From Tipula vernalis (Eukaryota; Arthropoda; Insecta; Diptera; Tipulidae): a DNA stretch of 64,000 nucleotides. Position 1 is the stretch's first letter; each line of letters begins with the position of its first letter. Location: NCBI GenBank assembly GCA_958295665.1, contig OY282560.1:270917315-270981314 (forward strand). Direction: 5' to 3'. Positions 3,004-42,380 of this stretch are shown here, in pieces. The notes under the pieces were generated by a model that worked only from the letters and a program-made list of their open reading frames with translations, was not told the DNA's origin and did not search any database. Both the position numbers and the translations under genes were made by a program.

Positions 3004-3159
3004 ATTATCACAGAAGATTCTCCAAGACCTCCTTTGTGCCTTTCTTAATTCTTTCTTATAAGTTCCGAGTTTCTCCTTATAGGAGTCCCAATCCTGAGCC
3101 TCCCTTGCATTTTTGGCTCTATTAAAGGCTATCCTACAAGCCTTTCGATAGGTTTCCAG

Positions 3160-4074: not shown

Positions 4075-4100
4075 GATAAATTCCTGCTACCGCAGGAATA

Positions 4101-18613: not shown

Positions 18614-19583
18614 AACCAGTTCTCAATTGATGGGGAATCTACCAGCAGAAAGAGTTACACCTATGCGACCTTTTACTAATTGCGGAATTGATTTTGCTGG
18701 ACCACTTTATTTTGCATCGAAAAAGGGAAGAGTTGGAACTAATCCTATCAAAGGATATCTGTGCATTTTTGTTTGCCACTCGGTAAAGGCAATCCACGTA
18801 GAACCGGTAAGCGATCTGACGAGCGAAGCATTTTTGGCTGCACTTAAACGGTTTACGGCGAGGCGAGGTATACCAAAGAAAATTTATACGGATAATGGGT
18901 CCAACTTCATCGGCGCAAAGAGAATTCTGAATGATGCCTGTAAGCTGATGCAAAACATTAATCATAATTATATAATTTCAGAGTACCTTACTAGCAATGG
19001 AATAAATTGGCATTTTATTCCACCTGCATCTCCTCATTTTGGTGGGCTGTGAGAATCAGCTGTGAAATCAGTAAAAACGCATTTACTCAAATCCACACAC
19101 AATGTAAATCTGACTTTTGAAGAGATGGCTACCCTTTTGTGTCAGATAGAAAACATCCTCAATTCACGACCGCTTTGTGCAACATCCACAGAAGACGATT
19201 ATGAAGTGCTTACACTGGCTCACTTCTTAATTGGCACCTCAACGGGGTCTGTTCCACAAAAATCAGTGACAGCAGCAGATTCGTCGTTATCCAGATGGCA
19301 AAGGATTCAAGCGAGAATCCAAACATTTTGGAAAAAATATTACACCGAGTATTTGCACAACCTACAGCAAAGACACAAATGGCAAAAGACAAGAGAAGAC
19401 CTGCAAGTCAACGACGTCGTACTTATAAAGGAAGACAACACGCCGATATGCAAATGGCCTCTTGGACAGGTTACCAAACTTCATGCAGGAGACGATAATC
19501 TAGTGAGAGTCGTCACCGTTAAAACTGCAAGTACTACACTACAACGTCCAGTAGTCAAAATAATCAAACTTCCTATTGGTTAA
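18588..19583 (+). pseudogene. BEL/Pao integrase core and C-terminal domain, broken
   Basis: Continuation of the polyprotein in another frame. The first part (18588-19052) has the second half of the zinc finger (CAKY), the DFAGPLYF block with the first catalytic D, and TDNGSNF with the second. A TGA at 19050-19052 stands where the HFGGLW-E motif normally has tryptophan, then the catalytic-E segment and a DUF5641-like C-terminal domain (KYYTEYLHNLQQRHKW, GQVTKLHAGDDNLVRVV) follow at 19062-19583. Both lesions are single-base events. The integrase would insert the cDNA; as it stands this copy would need help in trans. Confidence 0.88.
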
Positions 19584-25090: not shown

Positions 25091-25096
25091 GACCAG

Positions 25097-25686
25097 AGTA
25101 GTGTAAAGTGGATTGTCCTGGGCCAGCCGAAAAAGATTTTACACCAAACATTTTTTGCATGTAAATTACAACAACATAAACGTTTACGTATTTTTTTTAT
25201 ATGCATACTACACAGTGCAACCACAGTAACTAAATCTCTGTACAGTGCAATCAAAGTAACTAAACTCTTTAATAATGATAAAACATGTATAAATTCAACA
25301 AGAAAAATTCTTGGTCATCGACGAGAATCGAACTCGAGACTTTTGCATGGTAAGAAACTGTCTTAACCATCATACTACGAGCGAGATTGTAAATCATCAA
25401 CTATTTATGGTTTAAAAAAAAAATTCCGCATGTTCAGCGAAATAAAAAAATTACAATAATATAATAATACCCCTAAATGTCGATTACAAACTCTACACGC
25501 TTTAAAAATATTTTGTATACGATAATAATTTTTTTTTTAATTGAAATTAGATAGTGTAAAGTTATAATAATATTTTTTTTTTTTAATTCAACCTTGACAT
25601 TTCCGGAGAATGCATAACTGCATAGTTATAATAATATTTTATAATTTAACCTTGGCGTAAAATTTGCTGTAATGTACATAATGAAA
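25097..25686 (+). repeat. Left terminal inverted repeat of the Maverick
   Basis: Matches 38769-39357 in reverse complement almost base for base; the divergence begins after TAATGTACATAATGAAA. It contains a tRNA-like sequence (25312-25385, minus), a roughly 30 bp tandem pair starting CAGTGCAACCACAGTAACT and CAGTGCAATCAAAGTAACT (about 25216-25280), and a second direct pair of GTTATAATAATATTTT...TTCAACCTTG type (about 25559-25660). Confidence 0.95.
25312..25385 (-). ncRNA. tRNA-like sequence in the left TIR
   Basis: On the minus strand 74 nt have a tRNA layout: an A-box-like TAGTATGATGGTTA about 10 nt in, a B-box-like AGTTCGATTCT, and a 3' end ...ATGACCA. The T arm pairs at four of five positions, but the acceptor stem pairs at only three positions and the anticodon stem is poor, so it is not a functional tRNA gene. 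It could be a tRNA-derived Pol III promoter; a T-run follows the CCA. The right TIR carries the mirror copy. Confidence 0.5.
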
Positions 25687-25916
25687 ATTAGAAATATAGA
25701 ATATATAAGTGGTAGTTTTGATGTTATTTTGATGCATTTAATTAATAAACTTATACAACGTATTACTGTGTGGTGTAAAATTAAATACAATTTAAAATAT
25801 AAATTAATATTTTTTTGATTTACCTATTATTTTAAAATTAAAAGTGAAGTGATCGTAATCAATGTTGATCAATAAAAAAACAATATAAAAGTTAAGAAGT
25901 ACCTATTTGTGAAAAT

Positions 25917-26090
25917 ATTTGTGTAGTACCGAAAATTATAAACTAATTGTTATACAACTTTTAATTGTTAAATATTATAATTTAATCAATAATCTTTTTT
26001 TTGTGTTAGTGAACATTTATTTGTGTAGTACCTATAAACTAATTGTTATATTTACAACTTCTAAGTGTTAAATATTAGAAGTAAATCAAT
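25917..26090 (+). repeat. Diverged direct duplication upstream of polB
   Basis: Two related units, 25917-25990 and 26019-26090, both begin ATTTGTGTAGTACC and contain AAACTAATTGTTATA...GTTAAATATTA, ending in AATCAAT. They lie just inside the left TIR and upstream of polB, where its promoter must be. Confidence 0.7.
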
Positions 26091-26138
26091 TAATAAAATA
26101 AATAAAATTTTAAATACATAAGCGAAAAATTTTTTAAC

Positions 26139-26210
26139 GTAAGTTACAAATATACATTTATTTAAATTATATATAACGTTTTAACATATTATCTCTTTAT
26201 ATATTTTCAG
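26139..26210 (+). other. Candidate 72 nt intron in the polB 5' UTR
   Basis: A good donor (AAC|GTAAGT at 26139) and a pyrimidine-rich acceptor (TATATATTTTCAG ending 26210) lie 8 nt upstream of the polB start codon at 26218. Length and A/T content suit an insect mini-intron. No transcript evidence is available from sequence. Confidence 0.4.
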
Positions 26211-26217
26211 TTAAATC

Positions 26218-26994
26218 ATGAATAACTGTGAAGAATGCAACAAAATGTTTTCATCAAAAGACGTTTTAATTCGGCATTCAAAGGAGCAGCACCCTCAAGA
26301 TAACATGCTGTGTGAAGTGTGTGGCATCGTTTTCGGCAATAAACGAAAACTTGATTATCATAGCAAGAGGATGCATGTTACATCAGCCGTTAATAATCGC
26401 GAGAGGGTACATATTCCATCAAACTCAAGGACAGTTGTAGGAGCTGCCAAGAGAATCAAAATGGATGATGCACCTACTGATGACGTTTTATGTAGTAATT
26501 GCAATGTAAGTATTTCAAAAAAAATTTTATTTAATCATTATAAATCCTTACTTCATAAAAACAATTGTTTAAGGAACTATAGTGAGAATGATGAGAACAT
26601 CCAAATAATTAGCACTGCATTCAAGTCCCGAATAATTAGTTATAGGGTTTCAGATGTACCTATTAACTATATTAGTATAAATGATTTTATGTGTTCAATA
26701 AAACATAAAATAATTAAATTAATAGAGCTTCAAACAGAGTTATTTAAAGTTTGCAAAGTAAATTTTGAATTGTTTGGCTTATTCACTAAATTTGATTTAA
26801 AAGATGAAGCAAATGTTAGCTCATTAAAATCATTTAATACTAAAAATGCAATTTTAACGGAAGCTAGCGATTTGGATGAGATATTTTCTCAGCTTGTCTG
26901 CACCCTGAATACTCTGAGTGAGGAGTTTCAGGAGAAAGAGTCTGGATGGGCAATTGAAAAAGTATTGTTCATTGAAGTAAATTTTAACAAATAG
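26218..26994 (+). pseudogene. polB, N-terminal zinc-finger segment
   Basis: 258 residues with three C2H2-type zinc fingers in the first 120 residues, then a domain ending ESGWAIEKVLFIEVNFNK, a block that in family members leads straight into RGSSYIPLP. The frame is shared with 27001 onward; the TAG at 26992 is the only break. Confidence 0.85.
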
Positions 26995-27000
26995 AGTCCA

Positions 27001-29106
27001 ATGAGAGGGTCCTCTTACATACCTCTCCCAAAATGTATTAAAGATAAAAAGGCTATAATCAATGTACAAAATGCAGATCAAGCCTGCTTCGCCTGGTCAA
27101 TCATGGCTAGCAAATATCCTAATGTAAGAAAACCTCAACGGTGTAATTCATTTCCTCACTATAGTTCTATCTTAAATTTAGATAATATTAGTTTCCCCAT
27201 GCCTTTAAAAGATATCCCACAATTTGAAAGCCAGAATAATATAAGTGTAAATGTGTATAGTTTAGAAGGTAATCAAATTGTGGGACCTTTATATTATACA
27301 AAATCAAAAAAATCTCATCATGTTAATCTATTGTATATAGAAGATAGTGGAAATAGTCATTATTGCTATATAAAAAAATTAAATACCTTAGTAGGCAAAC
27401 AATTGTCAAAAAGAACTAATAAAAAATTTATTTGTGATGGTTGTTTAATATTTTTTAGAAATGAGGAAGGTTTAAATAATCATGTGCAATATGGTTGCAA
27501 TAGAATTAAATGTATTCTTCCTAATGAAGAAAATGACTTTTTAGAATTTAGTAATTATCGTCATAAATTACAAGTCCCATATGTGATATATTGTGATTTT
27601 GAAGCAATATTAAAACCAATTGATTCGTGTACTCTAAATCCTGAGATATCTTTTAGTGAAAATATTTTAAAACATGAACCCTACAGTTTTGCATATTACA
27701 TTAAATGTTCATATAATGACATTAAATCTAAATTTGTTACATACAGAGGTAATGATTGTGGGAAAATTTTCATTGATAAATTAAAACAAGATTTAGAAAT
27801 TATATACAACGAGCTACACGTAAATCGAAAAATGAAAAAACTTTCCTACACGGAGCAAGTAAATTATAATTTTTCAAATAAATGTCATATTTGTGATGGT
27901 GATTTTGATGATGATGAAAACTATAAAGTTAGGGATCATTGCTATTTAACAGGGAAATTTAGAGGTGCTGCACATGTTAAATGTAATTTAAATTATAAAA
28001 TAGCTGATTTCGTTCCAATATTTTGTCACAATTTAAGTGGCTATGATTCTCATTTTATTATAAAAGAATTAGGGTTTGATACTGAACAGATAGATTTAAT
28101 CGCTCAGAATAAGGAACGATATATATCATTCACAAAACATTTTAAAATTAGTGAGCATAAAAAAATTAAATTAAGGTTTGTAGATTCATTTAAATTTATG
28201 GCAGTTAGCATTGACAAACTATCTAATAATCTTAATGACTCTCAATTCAAAGAAGTTAGAAAGAGTTTTTCTAATCATACTGAATTTAACCTTATAAAGA
28301 AAAAAGGAGTTTTCCCCTATGATTATCTAGATAGTTTCAAAAAGTTAGATGAAACTCAATTACCACCTAAAAATAATTTTTATAATAAATTACTAAATTG
28401 TGATATTTCTGACGATCAATATAACCATGCTTTAAATGTTTGGGAAACATTTCAATGTAAAAGTTTAGGTGAATATTCTGACTTATATTTAAAATCAGAT
28501 GTTCTTATTTTGGCGGATATATTTGAAAATTTTCGAAATGTTTGCATGAAAACGTACGGTCTTGACCCGGCTCATTATTTTACATCTCCTGGTTTAAGTT
28601 GGGATGCAATGCTTAAGTTTACAAAAATCAAATTAGAATTGCTTAAAGATATAGACATGGTAAATTTTATTAGGAAAGGTATTCGAGGTGGTTTAGCTCA
28701 GTGTTCAAAACGATATGCAAGAGCAAATCACAAATATATGAAAAATTATAATAAGGAAATGGATTCTAATTTTCTTGTTTATTTAGATGCCAACAATCTA
28801 TATGGATGGGCCATGAGTCAATCACTACCGTATGCTAATTTCAGATTTCTTGATTCATCGGAATTAGATAAATTTGATATTAATGCTCTGACAGATAATG
28901 AATCAGGCATAGGTTATATTCTTGAAGTTGATTTAGATTATCCGAGCCATCTACATAAACAACATAATGATTTACCATTTTGTATGGAAAACATAAAACC
29001 CTTATACCAAAGCTCAAAAGAAAATAAATTAATTGCTAATCTACAACCTAAACAGGAATATGTTATTCATCAGAAAAATTTGAAAGACTGTCTTATAAGG
29101 GATTAA
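27001..29106 (+). pseudogene. polB, exonuclease and palm segment
   Basis: 701 residues that hold the 3'-5' proofreading exonuclease (ExoI-III motifs) and polymerase motif A, as detailed for the whole gene. The zinc-binding HNH/endo-VII-like insert (about residues 295-333) is characteristic of insect Mavericks. It ends at the frameshift. Confidence 0.92.
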
Positions 29107-29153
29107 TATTAAAAAAAATACATAGAGTTTTAAAGTTTAGCCAAAAACCATGG

Positions 29154-30041
29154 TTGAAATCTTATATTGATTTAAATACAGATCTTCGTACAAAAGCTCA
29201 AAATTCTTTTGAAAAAGATTTGTATAAATTAAAGAATAATAGTGTTTTCGGAAAAACAATAGAAAATGTTGAAAAAAGAACCGATATAAGATTATCAACA
29301 CATTGGGAAAATCTAGGTAACAAATTTGGTGCTAATACTTTAATTAGCAAACCTAATTTTCATTCATCCTCGATATTTGATGAAAATTTGGTTGCTATTC
29401 AAATGAGCCGATTATCTATTACGTACAATAAACCTATTTATGTGGGTTTCTGTGTTTTAGAATTATCTAAAACTCTAATGTATAATTTTCATTATGATTA
29501 TATTAAGACAAAATACAATGATAACGCAACACTTTTATATACTGATACAGACTCATTAATTTATGAAATTCAAACTATAGATTTTTACAAAGATATAAAA
29601 CCTGATTTAAATGAGAAATTTGATACTTCAGATTATTCTCCTAACAACTTATATAATTTCCCATTAGTAAATAAAAAGGTTTTAGGTATGTTTAAAGATG
29701 AATGTTGTGGAAAAATCTTAACAGAGTTTGTTGGAATCAGGGCAAAATCATATAGTTTGAACCTTGAAGATGATAATGAAATTATCAAGAAAATCAAAGG
29801 AATAAAAAAAAATGTTGTTTCTGATTCTATATCATTAAATGATTTTAAAAATTGTTTGAATAAAAATGTTAATGTAATTAGATCACAAATACATTTTAGA
29901 AGTATTAGACACAACCTATACACGCAATTGACAAACAAATTAGCGCTATCAAATTTCGATGATAAACGATTTGTAATTCCAAATTCATACAAAACTTTGG
30001 CATGGGGTAATAATGAAATTGATAATTTCTATTTTACTTAG
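29154..30041 (+). pseudogene. polB, C-terminal palm and thumb segment
   Basis: 295 residues with motif B (NSVFGKT) and motif C (YTDTDSL), followed by the thumb. The coding frame is open upstream to about 29095, before the first Met at 29154, so this Met is not a natural start. It terminates at 30041 with no nearby extension. Confidence 0.92.
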
Positions 30042-30283
30042 TTATAAATAACATATTTTATATTTCTTAAATATATATGTAATACATTTAATGCCTTACA
30101 ATTTTAATTAAATTTAGAATAGTAATAATTAATAGGTTTATATTTTAAAATAATTATAATTGTATGTATAGTATATGAAAATTTGTTTATTTATATGTAA
30201 AACAATATATTAGTTCTTTAAAATAAATAATTAATAATAATAATAATAATAATTAATTTTAAAATAAAAAACACTAGAATATT
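30042..30283. other. Convergent intergenic gap of the Maverick
   Basis: AT-rich gap between the 3' ends of polB (plus) and integrase (minus), with TAA/AATAAT repeats at about 30230-30255 and AATAAA-type signals for either strand. No ORF. Confidence 0.5.
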
Positions 30284-31204
30284 TTAAATAATATCGTTTT
30301 TATTTATCCATGAGTTATGAGATGATCCAAAACCGAGCCATTTAACATAAACTTTGCTACCTTTCTTCTTCAAGATTTTCTCTACGAGGTAAGTATCAGG
30401 ATGATTTGTCTTTTGGAGCTCTTTTTCATAAAACCTGCCAGATATTAGCTGTCCCTTCTAATCCTCAAGTAAATACGTCACAGGAAACTTATTGTTAATA
30501 CTGATAACTTTAAATATTTCAGTAGTCCAATTTGGTGTACAACCTTTTTCGAAAACGGTTTTAAATTTGCTAACTCGAACGAAATCGCCAACTTTAAATT
30601 TATTTTTCTGCATTAACTTAGGATATGTATAAACATGTTTTAAAAGTTGTTGTTCATTTGCCACAGTAACCTCTGCAGGTGCTAATTTAATTGTCCTATG
30701 TTTTTTGTTGTTGTAATCTTTCACTAAGTTTTTTAAAATATTTACCCACTTGTAAGATCCTTGAAGACTAAACTTCCTCCACATATGTTCCTTCAGAGTT
30801 CTATTAAATCTTTCTACTATACATGCTTTTATTGGGCTAAATGTTGAGTAATGGTTAATACTTTTCTGTTTCACAAGCTGTCTGAAATCTTTATTATAGA
30901 ATTCAGTTCCCATATCTGTTTGTAGATTCCTTGGTATTCTTTTACTCTCATTGAAAATTTTTGTTAAAGCATCAACAATCACCTGTGATGTTTTGTTCTT
31001 TAGAGGTTCTACCCAAGCAAATTTAGAAAAAGCATCGATTACAGTTAGAAGATATTTAAAACCAGCATTTTCTTTTGCATAGGGAATCATTTCCACAAGA
31101 TCTGCCTGCCATAAGTCATCAATACCCTTAATTTTAACATGTCTGCGTATAAAATTTTTACGTGCCGGCTTATGCAATTCATTGACTATTTGAAAGCGAC
31201 TCAT
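30284..31204 (-). pseudogene. Maverick integrase (retroviral type, chromodomain), one stop
   Basis: Inserts the element. 30458-31204 encodes 248 residues with a DDE core: D in LWQADLVEM, D in LQTDMGTEFYN and E in ACIVERFNRTLK, 33 residues after the second D. A TAG at 30458-30460 ends the ORF, but the same frame continues to 30284 with a chromodomain-like tail (DTYLVEKILKKKGSKVYVKWLG...SWI). Without the stop the protein would be about 300 residues, near the family norm. A TATA-like sequence lies about 55 bp upstream of the ATG. The stop may remove only chromatin targeting. Confidence 0.9.
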
Positions 31205-31520
31205 TTTATATATGTGGTCGAAGTATTAATGAAAGCTTATGAACTTTGGATTGTTATATATAAAATAATTTTTCCACATAATATTTGGGATTTATTTAAA
31301 GCGAAAGATATCTAAGATTATGATCACTGCAACATTCAACAAAATGAATGAGTTAATAATTTAAATCTAGAACATCATAAATGCTAGTTGGTTTGTTCAC
31401 AGCGTTGATAACAGTGAAGAAGCGGAGTCGAAACACCATTTTAAGATTGTTTTGAAATGAAATTAAATACGTTTTCTAAATAAGTTTATATAATATTGTT
31501 TTATTTATTTATTTATTTAT
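31205..31520. other. Maverick intergenic gap with TTTA repeats
   Basis: About 315 bp without an ORF; a (TTTA)n run of six units lies at about 31501-31524. Holds the integrase promoter. Confidence 0.5.
31254..31263 (-). promoter_or_regulatory. TATA-like sequence upstream of integrase
   Basis: TTATATATAACAATCC on the minus strand, about 50 bp before the integrase ATG at 31204. One of several TATA boxes at a similar distance from Maverick genes. Confidence 0.5.
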
Positions 31521-31877
31521 TTATACAAAATGCACATTATATTTATCTAATTTCACCATAATTAAGTGATCTTTACATAAATTGCTTAAATTTTGAACTT
31601 CCATTTCATTAAAAACGTTGAATCGCTCCGGCATAAATATAATGTTCTCCTCTGTCTCTATTAGGATTTTCACCCCATATCTAGTGTTGACTGATTTTAC
31701 TTCTTGCACCACATAGTTTCTAGCCACCTCCAGATCTTCAAATTTTATTATTGTTTTCTCTGCAAACCTTTCCACGTTATTGAGTTTTTCTATAAGTTGT
31801 TTTCGAATATCCATGGTTGGTTGATTGTTAACAATCCTATGCTTACTCTCAGACTGATGATTTTCAAAGAAACTCAC
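31521..31877 (-). CDS. Maverick orphan protein, 118 aa
   Basis: Intact small acidic-basic mixed protein with no signal peptide or membrane segment. The middle reads VKSVNTRYGVKILIETEENIIFMPERFN, a beta-rich pattern that reminds me of small OB-fold-like proteins found near insect DNA elements and viruses, but I cannot name a family with certainty. It is divergent from the BIR gene across a 440 bp repeat-containing gap, and co-oriented with integrase. Confidence 0.6.
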   Translation of the reverse strand: MSFFENHQSESKHRIVNNQPTMDIRKQLIEKLNNVERFAEKTIIKFEDLEVARNYVVQEVKSVNTRYGVKILIETEENIIFMPERFNVFNEMEVQNLSNLCKDHLIMVKLDKYNVHFV

Positions 31878-31920
31878 TATAATTTATACTAATTAGTAAT
31901 TATGGTTTAATATGACTTTT

Positions 31921-32200
31921 AAACACGCGCGTGGTATCAAGTAACATTCAATGATTTCAACAACCATATCAGCAAAATAGAGACCATAAACATGTTTAAT
32001 CATGTTTAACCACACAGATTAAATTTGCTTTCTTAGAAACAATTGCCCTCGTATCACGTTGCATCCTATGATTTCAACAACCACATCAGCAAAAAAAAAA
32101 AAAAAAAAAGAGACAATAAAGAAACATGTTTAATCATGTTTAATCATGTTTAATCATACATATTAAATTTGCTATCTTAAAAACAATTTAAAGACAAGTA
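31921..32200. repeat. Direct duplication in the divergent promoter region
   Basis: Two diverged units of about 120-140 bp: 31930-32043 and 32047-32192. Each contains ATGATTTCAACAACCA, a stretch ending GAGACnATAAA, then CATGTTTAAT repeats (two in the first, three in the second) and TTAAATTTGCTnTCTTA. It lies between the divergent 118-aa gene and the BIR gene. Confidence 0.75.
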
Positions 32201-32246
32201 AACACGTGACCTCTAGGATGGCCTCATTTAAAACTATTCAAGAGTT

Positions 32247-32253
32247 TATATAG
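32247..32253 (+). promoter_or_regulatory. TATA-like sequence upstream of the BIR gene
   Basis: GTTTATATAGACTCAGT, with TATATAG 65 bp before the ATG at 32318 and an initiator-like ACTCAGT at 32254. The direction agrees with the BIR gene. Confidence 0.5.
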
Positions 32254-32317
32254 ACTCAGTAAAGACTTGAACATTACATGAATCAGGTGTGAAAAGTCCA
32301 AAAAAAAAAAAAAAAAA

Positions 32318-32710
32318 ATGGAATGTGAAAGAGAAAACCTTATCGAAATGGATTCAGTACATCGAGAGGAAAATGGAGATACATGTGGTTTATATGGCTT
32401 AAACGGTGGTATGAACAAGATACAGAATCGATTAAAATCATTCAAGAAGTTGTGGAACAAATGGATCATTGATCCATTACAACTATCTCGAGCTGGATTT
32501 TATTACACAGGTGTAGGCGACTGCATCAAGTGTTTCAACTGTAAAGGAGTTCTCGAAGATTGGAATATCACCTATGAAATATGGACAGAACATGCATTTT
32601 GGTTTCCCACATGTCAACACGTTAGAAACATCAAGGGTGAAGTGTTTATTGATAACATCCAAAACAAATGGAATCAAGAGGGTGTAATTCATTGTAAAAA
32701 TAATATTTAA
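32318..32710 (+). CDS. BIR-domain (IAP-like) protein in the Maverick
   Basis: 130 residues with a single baculoviral IAP repeat, about residues 38-102. It starts RLKSF..LW, has the AGFYYTGVGD turn, and zinc ligands C72, C75, H92 and C99 in perfect CX2CX16HX6C spacing; the W82, W89 and FPTC positions also match. There is no RING, CARD or second BIR, so it would act by binding rather than as a ubiquitin ligase. BIR proteins of insects and their DNA viruses block caspases or bind their antagonists; whether this one does is inference. It is the only plus-strand gene in the right two-thirds, has its own TATA-like sequence, and looks less AT-rich than its neighbours, suggesting capture from a host or virus. 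ORF intact. Confidence 0.88.
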   Translation: MECERENLIEMDSVHREENGDTCGLYGLNGGMNKIQNRLKSFKKLWNKWIIDPLQLSRAGFYYTGVGDCIKCFNCKGVLEDWNITYEIWTEHAFWFPTCQHVRNIKGEVFIDNIQNKWNQEGVIHCKNNI

Positions 32711-32751
32711 GAAATAAAAAATAGATTTCAAAAAGTATAAATTGTTTTTAT

Positions 32752-33495
32752 TCATTTATTTTTGTTTGTACGAATACAAAGATCATTTATTATTTTTTGC
32801 TTACATAAAACTGGTATTTCATTGAACAATCTTGAATAATTAAAATAGTTATATCCTGTTACTGGTGGTATAAAAAAATCCTGTATTTGTAGAGAATGTG
32901 TTTTCCGATCGACACATTTTGCTAAGTATAAAAAGTAATAATTAGCGACATCAGTCCATACTGCCTCGCTCCAGATAATAATTGATTGCAAAAATGATGA
33001 TAAAGATGAGCAGCGTTCCCATTCTTTGGAATTTAAAACGAGTTTCTTCCCACCACTCGTAAACAAAATGCGTCTTTCATTATTTCTACTGGTTAGCTTT
33101 ACATCACAATTTCCATTCGTTTTTGGTAATTCAGCAAAGGAAATGTTATTTACACAACTGAAGTGATTTTTTATTGTTTGTAAATTATTGAAAATTGTAG
33201 TCGTCCACATTTCAGCACTTAGTGTATGAAACATTGTGTTTTTGAATAAGATTATAGTAGTTTTAAAAGTGTTAACATCATAACCAATGTTGAGATAACA
33301 TGTATGTTGATCATTTAAAAAATATGTATGAGACAACAATAAATTAGGTATGGTCACCATCTTTTTTTTAATTATATTATTAACGCTTTTTACTTTAAAC
33401 ATATTATTTGGGTTTAAAGGCAAATGTAAACTAGCTTTTGATAAAAAAACAGCTTTCCTATTTATACCCTTCAAGAGTTGCACTATCTCTTTCAC
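32752..33495 (-). CDS. Maverick orphan protein, 247 aa
   Basis: Intact ORF with a positively charged N terminus and no signal or clear membrane segment. Around residues 140-165 it reads RRILFTSGGKKLVLNSKEWERC, which weakly recalls PC4-like single-strand DNA-binding proteins (a beta strand followed by SxEW), but the match is short and I do not assign it. Convergent with the BIR gene (40 bp apart); it follows the protease in the minus-strand cluster, 55 bp downstream. Confidence 0.6.
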   Translation of the reverse strand: MKEIVQLLKGINRKAVFLSKASLHLPLNPNNMFKVKSVNNIIKKKMVTIPNLLLSHTYFLNDQHTCYLNIGYDVNTFKTTIILFKNTMFHTLSAEMWTTTIFNNLQTIKNHFSCVNNISFAELPKTNGNCDVKLTSRNNERRILFTSGGKKLVLNSKEWERCSSLSSFLQSIIIWSEAVWTDVANYYFLYLAKCVDRKTHSLQIQDFFIPPVTGYNYFNYSRLFNEIPVLCKQKIINDLCIRTNKNK

Positions 33496-33550
33496 ACATA
33501 CAAATCATCTCATCTCTTGGTTCTTCTTGTCGATGAACTAAAATAACCAG

Positions 33551-34081
33551 CTAAGCAATTTCTGAAAGGTGCTGAATCATGTTTGTTTTTGTTCTTGTAG
33601 TTAAAATCTTAGGGAATTCTTTTTTAAAAAGTTTCTTTATTTTTACATCATTTTCAATCTGGTTTTTAATATTAAATAATTTTATAAATTTTTCCATTGA
33701 ATTACGTTTACATCTATTTAACAAAAATATACAACAATATTGACCGCAAACTCCAGTGAATAAACTTTGTAATTGTTTATTATTGTATATAATACATTTA
33801 CTGTTACATTTTAGAAACCTCTTAATCTCAGGATATTTCGTTGCTGATCTTCCATAAGAATCAAAAAATTCTCCACATCCATTTGATGGAAAATAAACAG
33901 CTAACCAATGTTGCCCTGGTTGATTTGATTTATCCGTTTTAATAACATATAAAGCAGGTTTTGATTTAACCCTCTTTGGGATTGTGTTGATTGCAAAAAC
34001 ACCTTGAAAATACTTCTTAGTAAATTTATGTGATTTCAATGCTTTTTGAATGTCTAAAGTAGTCATTGTATTGACAATCAT
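33551..34081 (-). CDS. Maverick adenain-like cysteine protease (virion maturation)
   Basis: 176 residues, C5/Ulp1-type protease that in related viruses trims capsid precursors during assembly. Catalytic residues line up with adenain: H58 in GQHWLAVYF, D74 in EFFDSYG, Q105 in KQLQSLFTG, and C112 in GVCGQYCCIFLL, with the Q seven residues before the Cys as in adenovirus. Length is close to the family norm and the ORF is intact. A TATA-like TATAAATAG is about 50-60 bp upstream. It sits just downstream of the major capsid gene. Confidence 0.93.
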   Translation of the reverse strand: MIVNTMTTLDIQKALKSHKFTKKYFQGVFAINTIPKRVKSKPALYVIKTDKSNQPGQHWLAVYFPSNGCGEFFDSYGRSATKYPEIKRFLKCNSKCIIYNNKQLQSLFTGVCGQYCCIFLLNRCKRNSMEKFIKLFNIKNQIENDVKIKKLFKKEFPKILTTRTKTNMIQHLSEIA

Positions 34082-34128
34082 TTTGTACAGTATTGTTACA
34101 AACTAACTCTTTATTTTAGAATTGTGAG

Positions 34129-34139
34129 CTATTTATATT
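34129..34139 (-). promoter_or_regulatory. TATA-like sequence upstream of the protease
   Basis: AATATAAATAGCTC on the minus strand, about 50 bp before the protease ATG and next to the end of the capsid ORF. Confidence 0.45.
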
Positions 34140-34140
34140 A

Positions 34141-35430
34141 TTAATAGTTTGTTATAATATTACGATTTTTATCGATTTCTAGAGTAGTATCATATTCCAA
34201 GTACACTAGACATGTTTTAGTTGAGTTAAGAGCTTCTGCAAATCTTGCCTCTAATCTTAAGCTTCCTTGATTCATTAGAGAGTTACATGATAAAGTACTT
34301 GACATGTCTGAAGTTAAATCAAAAGCTAATAGGAAATAACCATTCTTAAACATTTCTTTGGTAATCAAATTTCCCTGAGGTGTGTGTAAAATTCCACTTG
34401 ATGTAAATATTGTTGAATACGCTCTAGCGTAACTGACCCCGTCTGCGAAATTCATTTCAATCGGTGCACTAGGAACTTGAACCCCATTCATATAAATTGA
34501 GAACGAAGTTATTTTATTATTTTTAAAATTATATGGGTTCTTAGATCTTTTCCCAGAATACGCATCATTATCTATCATTGTAAATATTAGATTTGTTGGG
34601 AGCTGTCCTAACACAATATTATCCAGTGAAATTGAGTTTCCTCCGGCAGGAATTGTAAATGATTTAATTTCATTACGCTTGTAGTGGTATTTTGCTGTTG
34701 TATTTTCAAGCATTTTGTGATGAGCAATTAAAATATTTGGATTTATATGAGCATGTCTCAAGTAAAGTGTAGCTTCTGTTATTTTAACAATCGAAGTATC
34801 TGTATCAACACCGAGTAAATAAAACTCCGGTTTGTTCAATGTTAACGAAATTCGTAAATCTACATTGTTTAATAATAACAAAGGTTGATTGAGCATGTCA
34901 GCATGCAATTTTCCATATACTTCTACAATTCTACTGTTTTTAGTTAACGCTGCTCTTAATTTTAACCCATCGTTTTCATTAAGATTATCGAGATTTTTCG
35001 TCTCCAAACTCCATCCTGACAATTGCAAATGTGTTTTGTATGCATCATCACCATAATTTAATAGTTGTTCCAAATATGCTCGATAACTGTAATTCCCATC
35101 TGTTGAATTTATATTCTTCCCATTTAAAGAAATATTGACTTGATGAAACAGAGAATGCAGCATATTGTTTACCAAACTAGGCTGATCTTTATCTGTGTCT
35201 ATATATACCTTGCCATCATTTTTAGTTACTTGAAATTTCAGGCACAAATTTATGGATGATAAATCTAAATACGAATCGCCATGACTGTAACAAGCAAATT
35301 CAATAACCGACTGATTTTCTAAACTGGTTATAGGCTTGTATGCTACTTCTTCATTTTTTAAAATACTTGTCTGAATTGAAGGCGGTTGAAATAAATCTAG
35401 TTCTGATTTCATACATTCTGTAAACGTCAT
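34141..35430 (-). CDS. Maverick major capsid protein (double jelly roll)
   Basis: 429 residues, beta-rich throughout, without signal or membrane segments. Landmarks of the insect/nematode Polinton capsid family (often annotated F54H12.2-like): LDLFQPPSIQTSI near the start, YLDLSSINLCLKFQVT, NNMLHSLFHQVNISLNGK, and YRAYLEQLLNYGDDA. In this family the fold is a double jelly roll that trimerises into hexons of an icosahedral shell; that is known for relatives and inferred here. The ORF is intact. Its ATG overlaps the stop of the preceding gene by one base (TAATG), so the two are likely co-expressed. Confidence 0.88.
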   Translation of the reverse strand: MTFTECMKSELDLFQPPSIQTSILKNEEVAYKPITSLENQSVIEFACYSHGDSYLDLSSINLCLKFQVTKNDGKVYIDTDKDQPSLVNNMLHSLFHQVNISLNGKNINSTDGNYSYRAYLEQLLNYGDDAYKTHLQLSGWSLETKNLDNLNENDGLKLRAALTKNSRIVEVYGKLHADMLNQPLLLLNNVDLRISLTLNKPEFYLLGVDTDTSIVKITEATLYLRHAHINPNILIAHHKMLENTTAKYHYKRNEIKSFTIPAGGNSISLDNIVLGQLPTNLIFTMIDNDAYSGKRSKNPYNFKNNKITSFSIYMNGVQVPSAPIEMNFADGVSYARAYSTIFTSSGILHTPQGNLITKEMFKNGYFLLAFDLTSDMSSTLSCNSLMNQGSLRLEARFAEALNSTKTCLVYLEYDTTLEIDKNRNIITNY

Positions 35431-35891
35431 TATGTAAAAATATCAATAATCCGTTTCTTGTTTGATTTATTTTTTAATATATTTTTCCTCTTTTTCACTC
35501 TATCACGAGCAACTTTCAACTGTTTACAACGGCTTCTCAAACAGCCTTTTATTGAATTTTTAGCTCCTGTACCAGACATTTGTTTAATTTTTTCTGCTGC
35601 TTTATCTCGTAGTTTATCAACCACTTGTATTGATCTATCACGAAGTATTTCATTAATCGGCTTTTGCGTTTGAAGAATGTCTGAACCAACCTGAAGCGCT
35701 TCACTTTTTAAGCCCTGAAGGGCTGATGTTAATATTGGTTTCAAGTATCGAAATATTCCTGCGAAAAATCCTCCTAATCCTCTTCCCTTTTGATATACTC
35801 TTTGAGATCGTAATAATGGACCAAAATCTTCATTGTTATACCCACCACCACCTGATTGGTTAGCATAGTACTTTGCGTAATAGTTATCCAT
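35430..35891 (-). CDS. Maverick small basic virion protein (pX/pVI-like, tentative)
   Basis: 153 residues: a Gly/Tyr/Asn-rich N terminus (YANQSGGGGYNNED), an amphipathic to hydrophobic GRGLGGFFAGIFRYLKPILTSAL stretch, then a very basic C terminus (KKRKNILKNKSNKK). The GLGGFF..LFR-type helix followed by a basic tail resembles small core or membrane-active proteins encoded next to the capsid in Polintons and adintoviruses. It ends one base into the capsid ATG. TATA box TATATAAAG at 35921-35930. Confidence 0.65.
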   Translation of the reverse strand: MDNYYAKYYANQSGGGGYNNEDFGPLLRSQRVYQKGRGLGGFFAGIFRYLKPILTSALQGLKSEALQVGSDILQTQKPINEILRDRSIQVVDKLRDKAAEKIKQMSGTGAKNSIKGCLRSRCKQLKVARDRVKKRKNILKNKSNKKRIIDIFT

Positions 35892-35920
35892 TTGTAATTA
35901 ATGTAATCTGTAAGATACCT

Positions 35921-35930
35921 CTTTATATAC
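35921..35930 (-). promoter_or_regulatory. TATA-like sequence upstream of the basic virion protein and capsid
   Basis: GGTATATAAAGAGG on the minus strand, about 32 bp before the ATG at 35891, overlapping the penton stop codon. It would serve the bicistronic-looking pX-like/capsid pair. Confidence 0.5.
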
Positions 35931-36792
35931 CTTTACGAAAGTGAAGTACTAGGTAGGTCATAAATAGTCCATCATTAAAATTGATTTGTTCTCCAGTTTC
36001 ATCAGTTATTAAAATACTGATCTCTGATATATTATACTTTTCAATGGGACAATATTGAACATTATCTATTTGATACGATCGAGGTATGCTTCTATCAGCG
36101 TCTGTTCCTAGAGGATGCATATACAAACATGGTACAGATGCATCTCCGATAGTTCTCGGTTTGATTATATTACAATAAAAACATATGTAAAATGGAATTG
36201 GGTTGATATTTGTATTCACATCAATATAACTATCTTTAACATTTTTTATTTTAGCTTCAATCTGTTTTGTTGGTTTGAAATTTTTAATTTCCTTTTTTAA
36301 AGATTCTTTAAACTCTGGCCATCGCGTTATTCTAATTTGAGAAAATATTACATCAAAAAATTCCTCAAGTGTGTACTCTTGATTACATTTTATTAAGGGA
36401 TAAACATCTTTTAACACTGGTAGCTGAATATATGGTTCATTCTTGTTATAATTGAATTTAACTAATTCAGCTGATGAGTTATATCGATCAAAGAAATTAG
36501 GTTCTTCAATTTTTTGATAAAATTTAGAGGTAGTTGCATTTAAAAATATTATTAATTCTATGTCTAAAGGAAGTATTTGTTCTGATGTCGATTTAATTGT
36601 AATTTTTGTTTCATCACTTATAGAAGTATGAGCGACGTTAGTTAGACCAACATACCATTTCTCATTAGAATCCAAATTTATAGTGTTTGGGAGTTTAACC
36701 GTGAACCTCGATAATGAATTTTTTGGGTAATATTTCAAAGAACTGTTACTTAAAAGAGTTACGTATGTGAAATTATCCATCACTGTTCTCAT
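35923..36792 (-). CDS. Maverick penton-like minor capsid protein
   Basis: 289 residues. It opens YVTLLSNSSLKYYPKNSLSRFTVKLPNTINL and WYVGLTNVAH, and ends with ISILITDETGEQINF...GLFMTYLVLHFRK, both hallmarks of the single-jelly-roll vertex protein of Polintons. It would form the pentamers at the icosahedral vertices (family knowledge). The ORF is intact; a second Met (MDNF) six codons in is an alternative start. TATATAAAGGAT lies 42-50 bp upstream. Confidence 0.85.
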   Translation of the reverse strand: MRTVMDNFTYVTLLSNSSLKYYPKNSLSRFTVKLPNTINLDSNEKWYVGLTNVAHTSISDETKITIKSTSEQILPLDIELIIFLNATTSKFYQKIEEPNFFDRYNSSAELVKFNYNKNEPYIQLPVLKDVYPLIKCNQEYTLEEFFDVIFSQIRITRWPEFKESLKKEIKNFKPTKQIEAKIKNVKDSYIDVNTNINPIPFYICFYCNIIKPRTIGDASVPCLYMHPLGTDADRSIPRSYQIDNVQYCPIEKYNISEISILITDETGEQINFNDGLFMTYLVLHFRKGI

Positions 36793-36833
36793 TAATAACT
36801 ATTAAATTAATAAATTAAAACACCGATTTTATC

Positions 36834-36844
36834 CTTTATATAAC
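36834..36844 (-). promoter_or_regulatory. TATA-like sequence upstream of the penton gene
   Basis: GTTATATAAAGGAT on the minus strand, in the 70 bp gap between the 261-aa gene and penton. Same core as the copies at 35921 and 38654. Confidence 0.55.
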
Positions 36845-36862
36845 TTTTTATTTTTAAAATTT

Positions 36863-37648
36863 TTATTTAATTCTTGACCTAGGTTGATTTCGTAAGCGTT
36901 CTTGTTCACTACGTTTTATTGTTTGAACTGTTAACGGACGATCACTTCTCCTCTGAGGTAGGTCTGAAGTTGTTTGTAGTGATCCTGGTTTTGGAGCCTG
37001 AAAAACACCTTTTTGTTTTTTAAAAATATGTTTTTTTGTTGGAACAGAGATTGTTGTTCCGTCCTTCATTTCAAATGTTCTGTACATATTAGAATGTGAA
37101 GAAATTCTTTCGCGTAAAATTTCTTTTGGATTAATAAACTCATCAGAAACAATACTATCATTATCATCATCATCATCATCATCATCTTTATCATCGAATA
37201 CATCGCTGTTATTTTCAAATGTTTCTTCTGCATCTAATTGTGTAAACACTGGCTTAGGTTTTTCATCAGCATCTGTGTACTCCTCTTTTGCTTTAGGTAT
37301 ATCAGCTTGTGTATATTTATCAGAACCTTTTGATGATGCATCTGTATTTGTATCTTTGTTTTTAGAAATAATTCTTTTAGTTTGAACTCCCACTTCATGA
37401 ACATGACGTATTGCTGGTTGATACAAATTAAATTTATCTTTATACGCATTTTTTCTTTTCATTGATGAATATGTTAATAAGTTCTGTCTATATAGATGCC
37501 ACTTATTCAAATCAGTTAGTTTGTTGTTACGTAGAATTGATTTCATATTTTTATCTAATTCCGATAGTTTACTATCATCAATTAAAATTTTTTTAATTTT
37601 TTCGAAAATTTCTGGTTGTATAACAATCATCCGTTGTAAATTACTCAT
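36863..37648 (-). CDS. Maverick orphan protein, 261 aa, acidic patch
   Basis: Intact. N-terminal helical region (MIVIQPEIFEKIKKIL...LTDLNKWHLYRQNL), then Lys-rich, then an acidic run of D/E around residues 145-165 (a GAT/ATC repeat in DNA), and a Ser/Pro/Arg-rich basic C terminus. The WHLYRQ block recurs in Polinton proteins but has no function known to me. Its ATG overlaps the upstream gene's stop by four bases (ATGA), so it is probably read from the same transcript. Confidence 0.65.
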   Translation of the reverse strand: MSNLQRMIVIQPEIFEKIKKILIDDSKLSELDKNMKSILRNNKLTDLNKWHLYRQNLLTYSSMKRKNAYKDKFNLYQPAIRHVHEVGVQTKRIISKNKDTNTDASSKGSDKYTQADIPKAKEEYTDADEKPKPVFTQLDAEETFENNSDVFDDKDDDDDDDDNDSIVSDEFINPKEILRERISSHSNMYRTFEMKDGTTISVPTKKHIFKKQKGVFQAPKPGSLQTTSDLPQRRSDRPLTVQTIKRSEQERLRNQPRSRIK

Positions 37649-37977
37649 GATGTCTGATTAATTATTTGGCCTATCAACCCTGATAAAATAGTGCTGATTA
37701 AAACGGGTAAGAATCCACCTTTTTGTACAAGAATTTTACGCTTTGAAGAGAGACACAGTTTTAAACAAGCCAAGTCGCGAAGTTCTCTTTTATACTTTTT
37801 TAATTTTGTTTTACACTGTTTAGAAATTCTGTTGTTTCCATTTAATGTGTTGAGTGATATTTCACATAAAGTTTTTATAACTTCAGGGGTGCAGACTTTA
37901 AGTAGCGCTTTTCTTGTTTTTGAGTTACACTTTTTTAGCACATGTAGAATATGTTTGTTTGCCTTCAATCGTTTCAT
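37645..37977 (-). CDS. Maverick small protein, 110 aa, basic with hydrophobic tail
   Basis: Basic, helix-rich protein (KANKHILHVLKK, LKKYKRELRDLACLK) ending in KRKILVQKGGFLPVLISTILSGLIGQII, a Gly/Leu-rich hydrophobic tail of membrane-segment length. The pattern is common in animal Polintons, and some authors compare such proteins with adenoviral core peptides; the role is unproven. It overlaps the ATPase end by about 53 bp at its start and the next gene by 4 bp at its end. Confidence 0.65.
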   Translation of the reverse strand: MKRLKANKHILHVLKKCNSKTRKALLKVCTPEVIKTLCEISLNTLNGNNRISKQCKTKLKKYKRELRDLACLKLCLSSKRKILVQKGGFLPVLISTILSGLIGQIINQTS

Positions 37978-38620
37978 TTTTTATACACACTTTTTTATTT
38001 TCGAATAAAATTGATGGACAATAGCATGTGAAATAGCCTTTTTTTAAGATATCGGTACGGAAACGAAATAAATCATTAACTGATTGTGTTAAATCAAATA
38101 GTAAATAACCATGAGGTCTCGAAGTAGCTTCATTATATACCCTCATAAGTTCCGCTGTGTTTTCAGGGTATATTTGTCTGGCTAGAGAACAAATCTGAGA
38201 TCTGTCTCGTGGATTTTTAAAAACTACAAGATATTTACAATTTAAAGAAATATCTCGACAATATTTTGCCTGATGAAACACATTCTGAGTTACTAAAATA
38301 ATAGATAAATTATTATGATGTGAACCTTTAGTAAAAAGTTCACAAATATTTTTATTATACGCTTCTGTCATTAGATCATCTAATATTATGATACTTCCGT
38401 CTTCGCAATTCTCAAAAGTATCTGGGATATTTTTTATAATTTCTATTTCATTTGTTTCATAGATATCTTGTGGTATCGCTTTTGAGTTTCCATTACACCA
38501 CACAATTTTATTAAATTTTTTACCATCATTTAAATGTTTTAATAAATTTAAAACGAAAGTTGTTTTTCCACACCCTGAGGGTCCCGCAACCATCATTGTA
38601 AACGGTTTAACCATATACAT
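37925..38620 (-). CDS. Maverick packaging ATPase (FtsK/HerA, A32-like)
   Basis: 231 residues; pumps the genome into the capsid in related viruses. Walker A GPSGCGKTT (13-21, K19), Walker B SIIILDDLM (D81/D82), and a sensor-type LVTQNVF (about 110-115). C-terminal RPHGYLLFDL is also typical. The length fits the compact A32-like family. ORF intact; TATA-like TTATAAAAGGG lies about 35 bp upstream of the ATG. First gene of the minus-strand virion cluster. Confidence 0.95.
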   Translation of the reverse strand: MYMVKPFTMMVAGPSGCGKTTFVLNLLKHLNDGKKFNKIVWCNGNSKAIPQDIYETNEIEIIKNIPDTFENCEDGSIIILDDLMTEAYNKNICELFTKGSHHNNLSIILVTQNVFHQAKYCRDISLNCKYLVVFKNPRDRSQICSLARQIYPENTAELMRVYNEATSRPHGYLLFDLTQSVNDLFRFRTDILKKGYFTCYCPSILFENKKVCIKNETIEGKQTYSTCAKKV

Positions 38621-38653
38621 TATTCTAATGTATCATACAATAAATGCGTACCC

Positions 38654-38662
38654 TTTTATAAC
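38654..38662 (-). promoter_or_regulatory. TATA-like sequence upstream of the ATPase
   Basis: GTTATAAAAGGGTACGC on the minus strand, about 35 bp before the ATG at 38620; sets the start of the virion cluster. Confidence 0.55.
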
Positions 38663-38768
38663 TTCTAAATAGAATGATTTTTTTTTCACGAAATGCAGAT
38701 GTAATATAACAGGTTGATAACTATACAAATACACTTCAATTCAAATATTTTCTCTTACATATACAGAA

Positions 38769-39357
38769 TTTCATTATGTACATTACAGCAAATTTTACGC
38801 CAAGGTTAAATTATAAAATATTATTATAACTATGCAGTTATGCATTCTCCGGAAATGTCAAGGTTGAATTAAAAAAAAAAAATATTATTATAACTTTACA
38901 CTATCTAATTTCAATTAATAAAAAATTATTATCGTATACAAAATATTTTTAAAGCGTGTAGAGTTTGTAATCGACATTTAGGGGTATTATTATATTATTG
39001 TAATTTTTTTATTTCGCTGAACATGCGGAATTTTTTTTTTAAACCATAAATAGTTGATGATTTACAATCTCGCTCGTAGTATGATGGTTAAGACAGTTTC
39101 TTACCATGCAAAAGTCTCGAGTTCGATTCTCGTCGATGACCAAGAATTTTTCTTGTTGAATTTATACATGTTTTATCATTATTAAAGAGTTTAGTTACTT
39201 TGATTGCACTGTACAGAGATTTAGTTACTGTGGTTGCACTGTGTAGTATGCATATAAAAAAAATACGTAAACGTTTATGTTGTTGTAATTTACATGTAAA
39301 AAATGTTTGGTGTAAAATCTTTTTCGGCTGGCCCAGGACAATCCACTTTACACTACT
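38769..39357 (-). repeat. Right terminal inverted repeat of the Maverick
   Basis: Inverted copy of 25097-25686, ending CTTTACACTACT next to the GACCAG target duplication. The two differ clearly only in a T-run/TTATT position by eye, so the insertion is recent or the repeats are homogenised. Confidence 0.95.
39069..39142 (+). ncRNA. tRNA-like sequence in the right TIR
   Basis: Mirror copy of 25312-25385, reading CTCGCTCGTAGTATGATGG at the start and GTTCGATTCTCG near the 3' end, ending ATGACCA, then AAGAATTTTTC, a Pol III-type terminator. Not a functional tRNA by its weak acceptor and anticodon stems. Confidence 0.5.
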
Positions 39358-39363
39358 GACCAG

Positions 39364-39906
39364 ATATATAACTGTCCTATATTTACATATATCCATAGCC
39401 ACTTTATGAAACGGCAATGTTGTGATATCATGCGAAATTAATGGCTCTTTAACGTTGCTCCTTTGAAACTTAGCACACTCTCGACAAGTGTGAACCACTC
39501 TTTCAATATCCTCTCCCATTTTAGGCCAATACAACAATCTTCTAGCTTTCTCTTTCGACTTAACCATGCCGCCATGACCTTTATATATTAACTTTAACAT
39601 ATTTTGTCTCATACTGGTTGGCACTACCACCTTATCACCATTAAATATTAACCCTTCTTTCACAAATAATTGATCCTTAACTTTCATATAATAATTTTCT
39701 ACTCCTTTAACAGGCCTCGTCCACCCCTCATGAATGTGTTTTAGAACTTCCCTCAAACATTTATCCTTACTTGTTTCTACCTGAAATTCCTGAACTTTCT
39801 CCTCTGATATAAGCAAATATTCATGAATACTGATCACATTTATAACATCTTCATCAATATTACAATCATCAACACTTTCATTATTTCCTGAATCCCTTGA
39901 CAACAA
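39364..39906 (-). pseudogene. gypsy integrase, N-terminal part (right of the Maverick)
   Basis: The H2C2 zinc finger (GHGGMVKSKEKARRLLYWP, HTCRECAKF) and the start of the catalytic core (FHKVAMDI, first D) of the gypsy integrase. Read through the Maverick border it ends at YLV, and the rest of the core resumes as IVDYFSK at 25090. The ORF that appears to run on to 39088 enters the Maverick TIR and is not real there. Confidence 0.88.
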
Positions 39907-41300: not shown

Positions 41301-42380
41301 TTACAACAAACTCAACATTACTTTCGCTCTATTCCTAGGTTGACATACCAATTTAATTCCGAAGACAACATTGAGTCGAAACCCTCCAAAAGCGCTGACT
41401 TTACTATTTCGTTCCTTAATCAGATGCACCCTATTCAGCTTCTCTACTACGTCATATGGAATCACATTAATTTCTGCTCCACTATCAATCTTGAAGTTAA
41501 TTAATTGTTCGTTTATCTCTACTTCATGTGACCAGTTTTCCATTTTGATATCCGATTGGTTTACTTCATGAACCTCTGTTATTTGTCTAATAGACAAACT
41601 ACAATCATCTGACTCTCCATCCTCACCAGAATTCTGTTCTTTTTCCACTTGATCAACTATCCGATTTCTAGTATTGTACTTTGCAAATTGCTTCGCCTGT
41701 TGGTCAGTTTTATTTCGCTGGTAACACCCCACTGCAAAATGTCCTACCTTCGAACATATCATGCACTTTTTCCCGTAAGCTGGACACTTCCTTAATTTAT
41801 GGTCCATTCCACATTTCTTGCAACGAAAAACCTCCTTATTACGATGAACATTGACCACATTCACTGACTTTGCCACATAGTCTTGTACTTCTTTAGCTTG
41901 CATTTTACTCGCTTCGTGCGCTCTACATATTTGCACCGACTTATCTAGATCCAACCCCGTGTTTCTTAATAGATATTCCTGTACAACTACATCCTTTATA
42001 CCAATAATTATTCTATCACGTATCAATGACGACTCTTGAACTCCAAATTCACAATCCCGTGCCAACATTTTTAAACTTGTTAAAAAATTGTCAAACAATT
42101 CACCATCTTCTTGTGCTCTTTTGAAAAACCTAAACCGATTAAACACTGTGTTTTTCCTTGGACTAAAATGCTCATCAAATTGTTTAAATATCACTTCGTA
42201 CGTTTTTTTATCTTCCTCACTCAACTTAAATGTGTTATACACCTGCAATCCTTCATCGCCAATACAATTTAATAGCATTGCAATTTTAATTACGTCATCC
42301 TTATTCTGTGTTTCTGACGCTTGAAAATAAATTGTGAATTTTTGTTTAAAAATTTTCCAACTGTCCGCCGGATTTTCCAT
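41301..42380 (-). CDS. gypsy (Mag-type) Gag and protease start
   Basis: 359 residues. Gag: WKIFKQKFTIYFQASE and FNRFRFFKRAQEDGELFDNFLTSL, typical of the K02A2.6-like Gag. Two zinc knuckles, CKKCGMDHKLRKC and CMICSKVGHFAVGC (about 183-220). An aspartic protease starts at FKIDSGAEINVIP (about 300), and the ORF ends before the RT begins in another frame. The start is the first Met in the frame, 200 nt from the LTR. Confidence 0.88.
   Translation of the reverse strand: MENPADSWKIFKQKFTIYFQASETQNKDDVIKIAMLLNCIGDEGLQVYNTFKLSEEDKKTYEVIFKQFDEHFSPRKNTVFNRFRFFKRAQEDGELFDNFLTSLKMLARDCEFGVQESSLIRDRIIIGIKDVVVQEYLLRNTGLDLDKSVQICRAHEASKMQAKEVQDYVAKSVNVVNVHRNKEVFRCKKCGMDHKLRKCPAYGKKCMICSKVGHFAVGCYQRNKTDQQAKQFAKYNTRNRIVDQVEKEQNSGEDGESDDCSLSIRQITEVHEVNQSDIKMENWSHEVEINEQLINFKIDSGAEINVIPYDVVEKLNRVHLIKERNSKVSAFGGFRLNVVFGIKLVCQPRNRAKVMLSLL

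Follow-up and report, generated by a model that had tools for sequence, protein, structure and literature searches.

Are the Mavericks of animals mere transposons, or do they still live as viruses? This open question is raised anew by a 64,000-nucleotide stretch of the Tipula vernalis genome (contig OY282560.1, positions 270,917,315 to 270,981,314 of the forward strand; hereafter the window), in which a Maverick/Polinton element at 25097-39357 carries an intact gene for a single-BIR protein of the inhibitor of apoptosis (IAP) kind. On balance we favor the reading that this gene, likely captured from an insect IAP of the DIAP1 type (its second BIR), encodes a protein predicted to delay the death of the host cell. 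It is hard to see what an element confined to germ-line transposition would gain from a death inhibitor, whereas a virus needs one while it makes particles, and a BIR gene conserved across many Maverick copies makes the virus-or-transposon question testable.

The BIR gene and the element that carries it

The gene is an intact open reading frame (ORF) on the plus strand at 32318-32710, which runs from ATG to TAA and encodes 130 residues. A first-pass annotation, made from the letters alone, had described it as a canonical BIR gene captured by a Maverick, and had proposed a profile search, a tree, a survey of related Mavericks, a selection analysis and a predicted structure as checks. The search returned PF00653 (BIR) with an E-value of 4.4e-18 and a score of 66 bits (curated cut-off, 22.9), so the match is not a product of chance, and a chance motif was ruled out as the origin of the BIR pattern. 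All of the landmarks that had been named are present: the zinc ligands CX2CX16HX6C are complete (C72, C75, H92 and C99), as are RLKSF, AGFYYTG and FPTC (F96-C99). BIR was the sole Pfam family in the protein at E up to 1; there is one BIR only and, within the same limit, no C-terminal RING. When solved structures were searched with phmmer, NAIP chains ranked first, summed over three BIRs, and were followed by DIAP1-BIR2 (E 3.3e-20), cIAP1-BIR3 and then others including XIAP-BIR3.

Past the minus-strand integrase, the BIR gene is the first ORF to be read from the plus strand, and it is surrounded by minus-strand ORFs. The region 30458-38620 has only one other plus-strand ORF of at least 100 residues (37691-38008), which overlaps minus-strand ORFs. 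The TATA-like sequence credited to the gene was located as TATATA at 32247-32252, a possible promoter element; TATA-like stretches also lie 5' of BIR in L009, L011, L013, L015, L016 and L017, and the DNA is AT-rich. It is true that the gene is less AT-rich than its neighbors, with a GC content of 0.351 versus 0.249-0.340 in 13 other ORFs of the element and 0.283 in the whole element, but the difference is slight, and at third positions the gene ties with the neighboring ORF 31521-31877 (0.336 each). Base composition was rejected as proof of capture, the GC difference being too weak.

Placement of the gene within a Maverick/Polinton was borne out by inverted repeats, a 6-bp duplication, an integrase and a packaging ATPase. 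The element is 14,261 bp long and has inverted-repeat arms of 590 bp, both flanked by the target duplication GACCAG (25091-25096 and 39358-39363). Because the arms are near-identical, the insertion is recent. The features of the element are as follows.

25097..25686, no strand: left terminal inverted repeat, 441 nucleotides at 100% and 157 nucleotides at 99% complementary to the right arm
26218..26994, plus strand: C2H2 zinc-finger protein (PF13894, E 3.8e-7)
27001..30041, plus strand: likely DNA polymerase, split in two ORFs (27001-29106 and 29154-30041), with a YTDTDS motif seen by eye in the second
30458..31204, minus strand: integrase (rve; PF00665, E 2.5e-15), shorter than in other copies
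31521..31877, minus strand: 118-residue ORF with no function assigned, with weak relatives near the BIR genes of groups B and C (see below)
32247..32252, plus strand: TATATA, which may serve the BIR gene as a TATA box, found by eye 66 nucleotides upstream of the ATG
32318..32710, plus strand: single-BIR protein of 130 residues without a RING (PF00653; DIAP1-BIR2 by sequence; predicted fold)
32752..33495, minus strand: 247-residue ORF, convergent with the BIR gene, a relative of which adjoins BIR in group C too
33551..34081, minus strand: probable adenovirus-type C5 cysteine protease (PF00770, E 0.00039, 20.6 bits, just below the cut-off of 21.3)
34141..35430, minus strand: 429-residue ORF, likely capsid protein by inference, with 421 relatives
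35430..37977, minus strand: four further late-region ORFs (153, 289, 261 and 110 residues), with no function assigned from the ORF list and Pfam
37925..38620, minus strand: A32-type packaging ATPase (PF04665, E 3.8e-9, 36.8 bits, cut-off 22.8)
38769..39357, no strand: right terminal inverted repeat, pairing with the left arm

Pfam identified no polymerase in the two candidate polymerase ORFs, which were searched separately and not joined, and the first gave no match in a sequence search of solved structures. The 429-residue ORF is likely the capsid protein of the Maverick. Among the best 120 of its 421 relatives, two have descriptive names ('F54H12.2-like', in the flies Condylostylus and Hermetia). 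It had no match by sequence among solved structures and no relative in a scan of viral contigs. An NCBIfam search returned nothing informative.

Copies, divergent relatives and origin of the gene

The BIR protein gave 106 matches in the genome (G000; 1.27 Gb in 340 contigs, three being 464, 412 and 371 Mb), 47 of which, by manual count, cover the full protein, have at least 97% identity and contain no stop. Together with four nearly full-length matches at 95-98% and two at 90% (one with a stop), these made up a recent BIR set of 53. A recent integrase set of 49 was taken from the listed rows of 152 matches, at no less than 92% identity and with at least 218 of 248 residues covered; the open frame is 313 residues in most of these copies versus 255 in the window. 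A BIR of the recent set lies within 12 kb of 47 of the 49 integrases and on the opposite strand in all 47 pairs, with a start-coordinate distance of 1.4-1.96 kb in 45 pairs and of 4.1 and 8.6 kb in two. One of the two remaining integrases is flanked by BIR fragments, and the other (C1:376779436) has no BIR among the matches listed; six members of the recent BIR set lack a partner among the 49 integrases. Seven other copies that were fetched differ from the BIR gene of the window by 2 or 3 nucleotides, and all have D67 and S74; among the eight copies compared, only that of the window has G67 and N74. This Maverick was recently active. In recent copies that differ so little, intact frames carry little weight as evidence.

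Divergent relatives, which fall into three groups (A, B and C), were found to carry BIR as well. L009 and L010 (BIR 61-65% identical) preserve the order 429-residue ORF, protease, 247-residue ORF, BIR, integrase. The same order is seen in L017 and L018 as far as BIR and the 118-residue ORF, with no integrase match within the stretch, and L019 has a nearly complete gene order with a decayed integrase. Group B (L011, L012, L013 and L014; BIR 45-50%) has a different layout. L013 contains a PF03175 polymerase (E 6e-24), on which the polymerase assignment in the window also leans, and L014 an rve integrase; neither polymerase nor integrase was found within the 10 kb of L011 and L012. In group C (L015 and L016), BIR is 32-33% identical over 119 columns and adjoins, on the same strand, a relative of the 247-residue ORF (31% over 206 columns, E 2e-24). 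Weakly conserved relatives of the 118-residue ORF lie near BIR in every group (against the window, E 4e-4 to 0.014 in L015, L016 and L013); the small protein of L011 matches that of L013, not the 118-residue ORF of the window. The 247-residue neighbor and the weak relative of the 118-residue ORF suggest that group C consists of Mavericks. An integrase piece in L016, 6 kb from BIR and 73% identical to that of the window, may be part of another insertion. Because layout differs among the groups, genes may have been rearranged or BIR captured more than once.

Outside this genome, a protein search with BIR gave three relatives (85, 68 and 51%), and a search with a 10-row alignment gave 34. Classed by sequence alone, P0002-P0004 and P0027 fall in group A, seven in B and four in C, and the others are other BIR proteins. 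Viral contigs scanned with the BIR of the window, the 10-row alignment, one group B protein and one group C protein yielded no relative. A TDS motif precedes BIR in the tails of groups A and B, often as (E/S)TDSxxFS (P0003, P0004, P0005, P0007-P0009, P0011, L009 and L011). TD[S/T] occurs in 9 of 14 N-terminal tails, three times in P0005 and twice in P0011, with a shuffle expectation of 0.000-0.092 per tail. The tails of the window, P0002, L017, P0027 and P0025 are without TDS; the window shows EMDS there.

Nei-Gojobori counts between the window and eight loci were used in a one-sided Fisher test for a nonsynonymous proportion (pN) below the synonymous proportion (pS); L016 was counted in the same way and left out of the test. 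The deficit was strong for L009 (p 3.3e-18), L010 (p 5.9e-18) and L011 (p 2.4e-6), and was also seen for L013 (p 1.7e-4), L015 (p 0.0022) and L019 (p 0.027). Silent change thus dominates between divergent relatives, which argues that the BIR protein is kept by selection. The pattern indicates that the protein was retained over long times; the same is not demonstrable for the recent burst. A one-off fragment of a host IAP, caught by chance, was ruled out by the many copies, the divergent carriers and the silent-site excess. The first-pass annotation had named two outcomes that would tell against its reading, the lack of a significant BIR match and a gene confined to this copy as part of a host IAP; the match is significant, and the gene is common to many copies and to divergent Mavericks.

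For the tree with host, viral and other Maverick BIRs, 68 BIR domains were located by motif and excised; a spurious match, a truncated domain and the domain of L014 were then excluded, leaving 65 domains and 79 columns. Support was 98/83 for group A, 99/96 for B, 99/96 for C and 99/97 for A+B, and all three groups share their side of the tree with the second BIRs of IAPs, those of the host included. In topology tests, a tree with A+B+C forced as one clade was not worse (approximately unbiased test, p-AU 0.49), nor was one in which four DIAP1-like second BIRs of the host were grouped with A+B (p-AU 0.56). The data thus agree with, but do not prove, a single capture from the second BIR of a DIAP1-type IAP of insects. 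The earlier view of a captured gene stands to that extent; its argument from composition is weak, and the deep forks are weakly supported.

The host also has intronless-looking BIR-BIR genes in two clusters (G000:C3:77.17-77.26 Mb and 124.67-124.80 Mb; L020-L024, L026 and L027). A RING-like tail was observed in four that were fetched (L021-L024). In L027 and L028 (C3:146 Mb), the stretch after the BIRs resembles what we take to be a zeste/SANT-type domain.

Elsewhere in the window, a retroelement lies against the right end of the Maverick, with an integrase zinc-binding ORF at 39088-39906 (PF17921, E 3.4e-14) extending into the repeat and, as part of the same retroelement, an aspartyl-protease-like ORF at 41301-42380 (PF13975, E 9e-5, below the cut-off). 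A largely intact BEL/Pao retrotransposon with three ORFs occupies 14408-19583 (PF05380, PF03564, rve and PF18701). Retroelement pieces (reverse transcriptase, RNase H and endonuclease) were found at 459-5412 and 57571-57984, with an upstream ORF containing PF16012.

Predicted fold, function and competing explanations

A first structure model, built from a 4-row alignment, was dropped (mean predicted local distance difference test score, pLDDT, of 55). The fold predicted from a 19-row alignment matches DIAP1-BIR2 and XIAP-BIR3 and is that of a BIR with a peptide groove, and the best Foldseek match was DIAP1-BIR2 (PDB 1jd4, 1jd5, 1jd6 and 1q4q). In known BIRs, an acid in the peptide groove holds the free N-terminus of the ligand. 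The corresponding position is residue 86; among 23 Maverick-type BIRs, 20 have an acid there and all have Trp95. The first-pass annotation had asked whether the zinc site and groove are intact; in the window protein the four ligands and Trp95 are there, but Tyr86 replaces the acid. The sub-lineage with Tyr86 constitutes a natural test of the role of that groove residue.

The ligands of type II BIRs are Ala motifs at free N-termini, as in Hid, Reaper, Grim, Smac and the initiator caspase. We hypothesize that the BIR protein, if expressed, would bind zinc and would occupy the N-terminal IAP-binding motifs of death inducers of the Hid/Reaper/Grim type, thereby sparing host DIAP1; the initiator caspase Dronc would be an alternative partner. 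Since it has no RING, the protein should not itself mark its partners with ubiquitin, and it would act as a decoy or blocker by binding alone. Apoptosis would be held back, so that a cell replicating and packaging the DNA of the element would survive longer, a presumed benefit to an element with a likely polymerase and a likely capsid protein of its own.

Several observations weigh against this reading. The split between first and second BIRs is supported by 79/15 only. Older integrases, defined as listed rows outside the 49 with at least 120 residues and at least 40% identity (39 rows at 36 places), are accompanied by a BIR match within 12 kb at only 10 of the 36 places, a count that may miss decayed BIRs because the search returns best candidates only; the BIR gene is therefore not part of every Maverick in this genome. 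Close copies are without clear selection (L017, p 0.39; L018, p 0.12; L019, p 0.027), and saturation of silent sites precludes a ratio for L009 and L010. Residue 86 (32573-32575) is Tyr in the window, P0002 and L017 and Asp in DIAP1-BIR2, so peptide binding may be weakened or changed. Matches to solved structures show fold, not function. Finally, as the Burro retroelements of planarians carry BIR, a BIR alone is no proof of a virus-like life.

Of the competing explanations, one holds that the protein targets immune signaling and not death, as a decoy that interferes with the DIAP2 branch of the insect immune deficiency (IMD) pathway, in which DIAP2 acts. The fold is common to groove BIRs of several IAPs, a decoy mode is natural for a protein without a RING, and the tree leaves a DIAP2-like host BIR (L025) together with the Maverick genes in one unresolved fork. 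However, the nearest insect domain among solved structures is DIAP1-BIR2 both by sequence and by Foldseek, a comparison that is one-sided because no DIAP2 structure was among the matches listed, and we regard this explanation as unlikely. We give similarly low weight to a repurposed BIR, in which the Tyr86 groove would refuse free N-termini and take a different partner (a virion protein or a chromatin protein, for example), and the N-terminal tail would offer a second site for binding. Survivin shows that BIRs can have roles other than in cell death, Tyr86 is common to three proteins, and many group A and B tails have the short TDS motif, which is repeated in two group B proteins; yet most Maverick-type BIRs retain the acid and all retain Trp95, and residue 87, beside Tyr86, is Glu in the window and might substitute. 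Least credible is neutral cargo, a piece of a host gene caught once and passively multiplied in the recent burst, for although the compared copies are nearly identical and 26 of the 36 older integrase places have no detectable BIR, this runs counter to the strong excess of silent change in divergent relatives, the adjoining of BIR and the 247-residue ORF even in very divergent elements, and the full-length relatives in other datasets.

Beyond the predicted delay of host-cell death by this one protein, we tentatively propose, with less confidence, that insect Mavericks own a dedicated family of single-BIR, RING-less death blockers that arose by a single acquisition and persisted in at least three element lineages (A, B and C), and that they behave like apoptosis-suppressing DNA viruses, which would be an indirect sign of a virion-making stage.

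Comparison with known systems

A BIR gene in a Polinton is apparently new, although related precedents are published. No report of one was found in open-licence PubMed Central, a scope that does not include the original adintovirus paper. Adintoviruses, which are Maverick-type viruses of animals, resemble this element in their integrase and adenovirus-like genes. They have been defined by a PolB with an OTU-like N-terminus and a hexon recognizable by BLASTp (PMC11071296), and the main text of PMC11071296, supplements aside, contains no mention of IAP, survivin or BIR. The passages of a clam study that name Mavericks and expanded IAPs draw no link between them (PMC8905726). The closest precedent in a mobile element is that of the Burro elements, giant long terminal repeat retroelements whose description reports BIR and BCL2-like domains (PMC6431247). 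As described there, the BIR of Burro is a domain within a huge retroelement polyprotein, whereas here it is a free-standing gene of a DNA transposon; Burro also cautions that BIR has other uses (PMC6431247).

A BIR gene in an insect DNA virus is a likeness shared with the IAPs of baculoviruses, nudiviruses and entomopoxviruses, such as IAP-3. A BFVD search with the Maverick protein gave a best E of 5e-8, and 36 of the 50 matches listed were named as IAP, apoptosis inhibitor or BIR protein. The one IAP-3 returned (P0015) has two BIRs and a RING and falls outside the A+B and C clades, unlike the Maverick BIR. DIAP1 of Drosophila likewise has two BIRs and a RING. The Maverick protein shares with its BIR2 the BIR fold, the groove Trp and the zinc ligands, and differs from DIAP1 in having one BIR, no RING, a private N-terminal tail and Tyr for Asp in the groove. 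Small natural BIR proteins without a RING are thus available for comparison with DIAP1.
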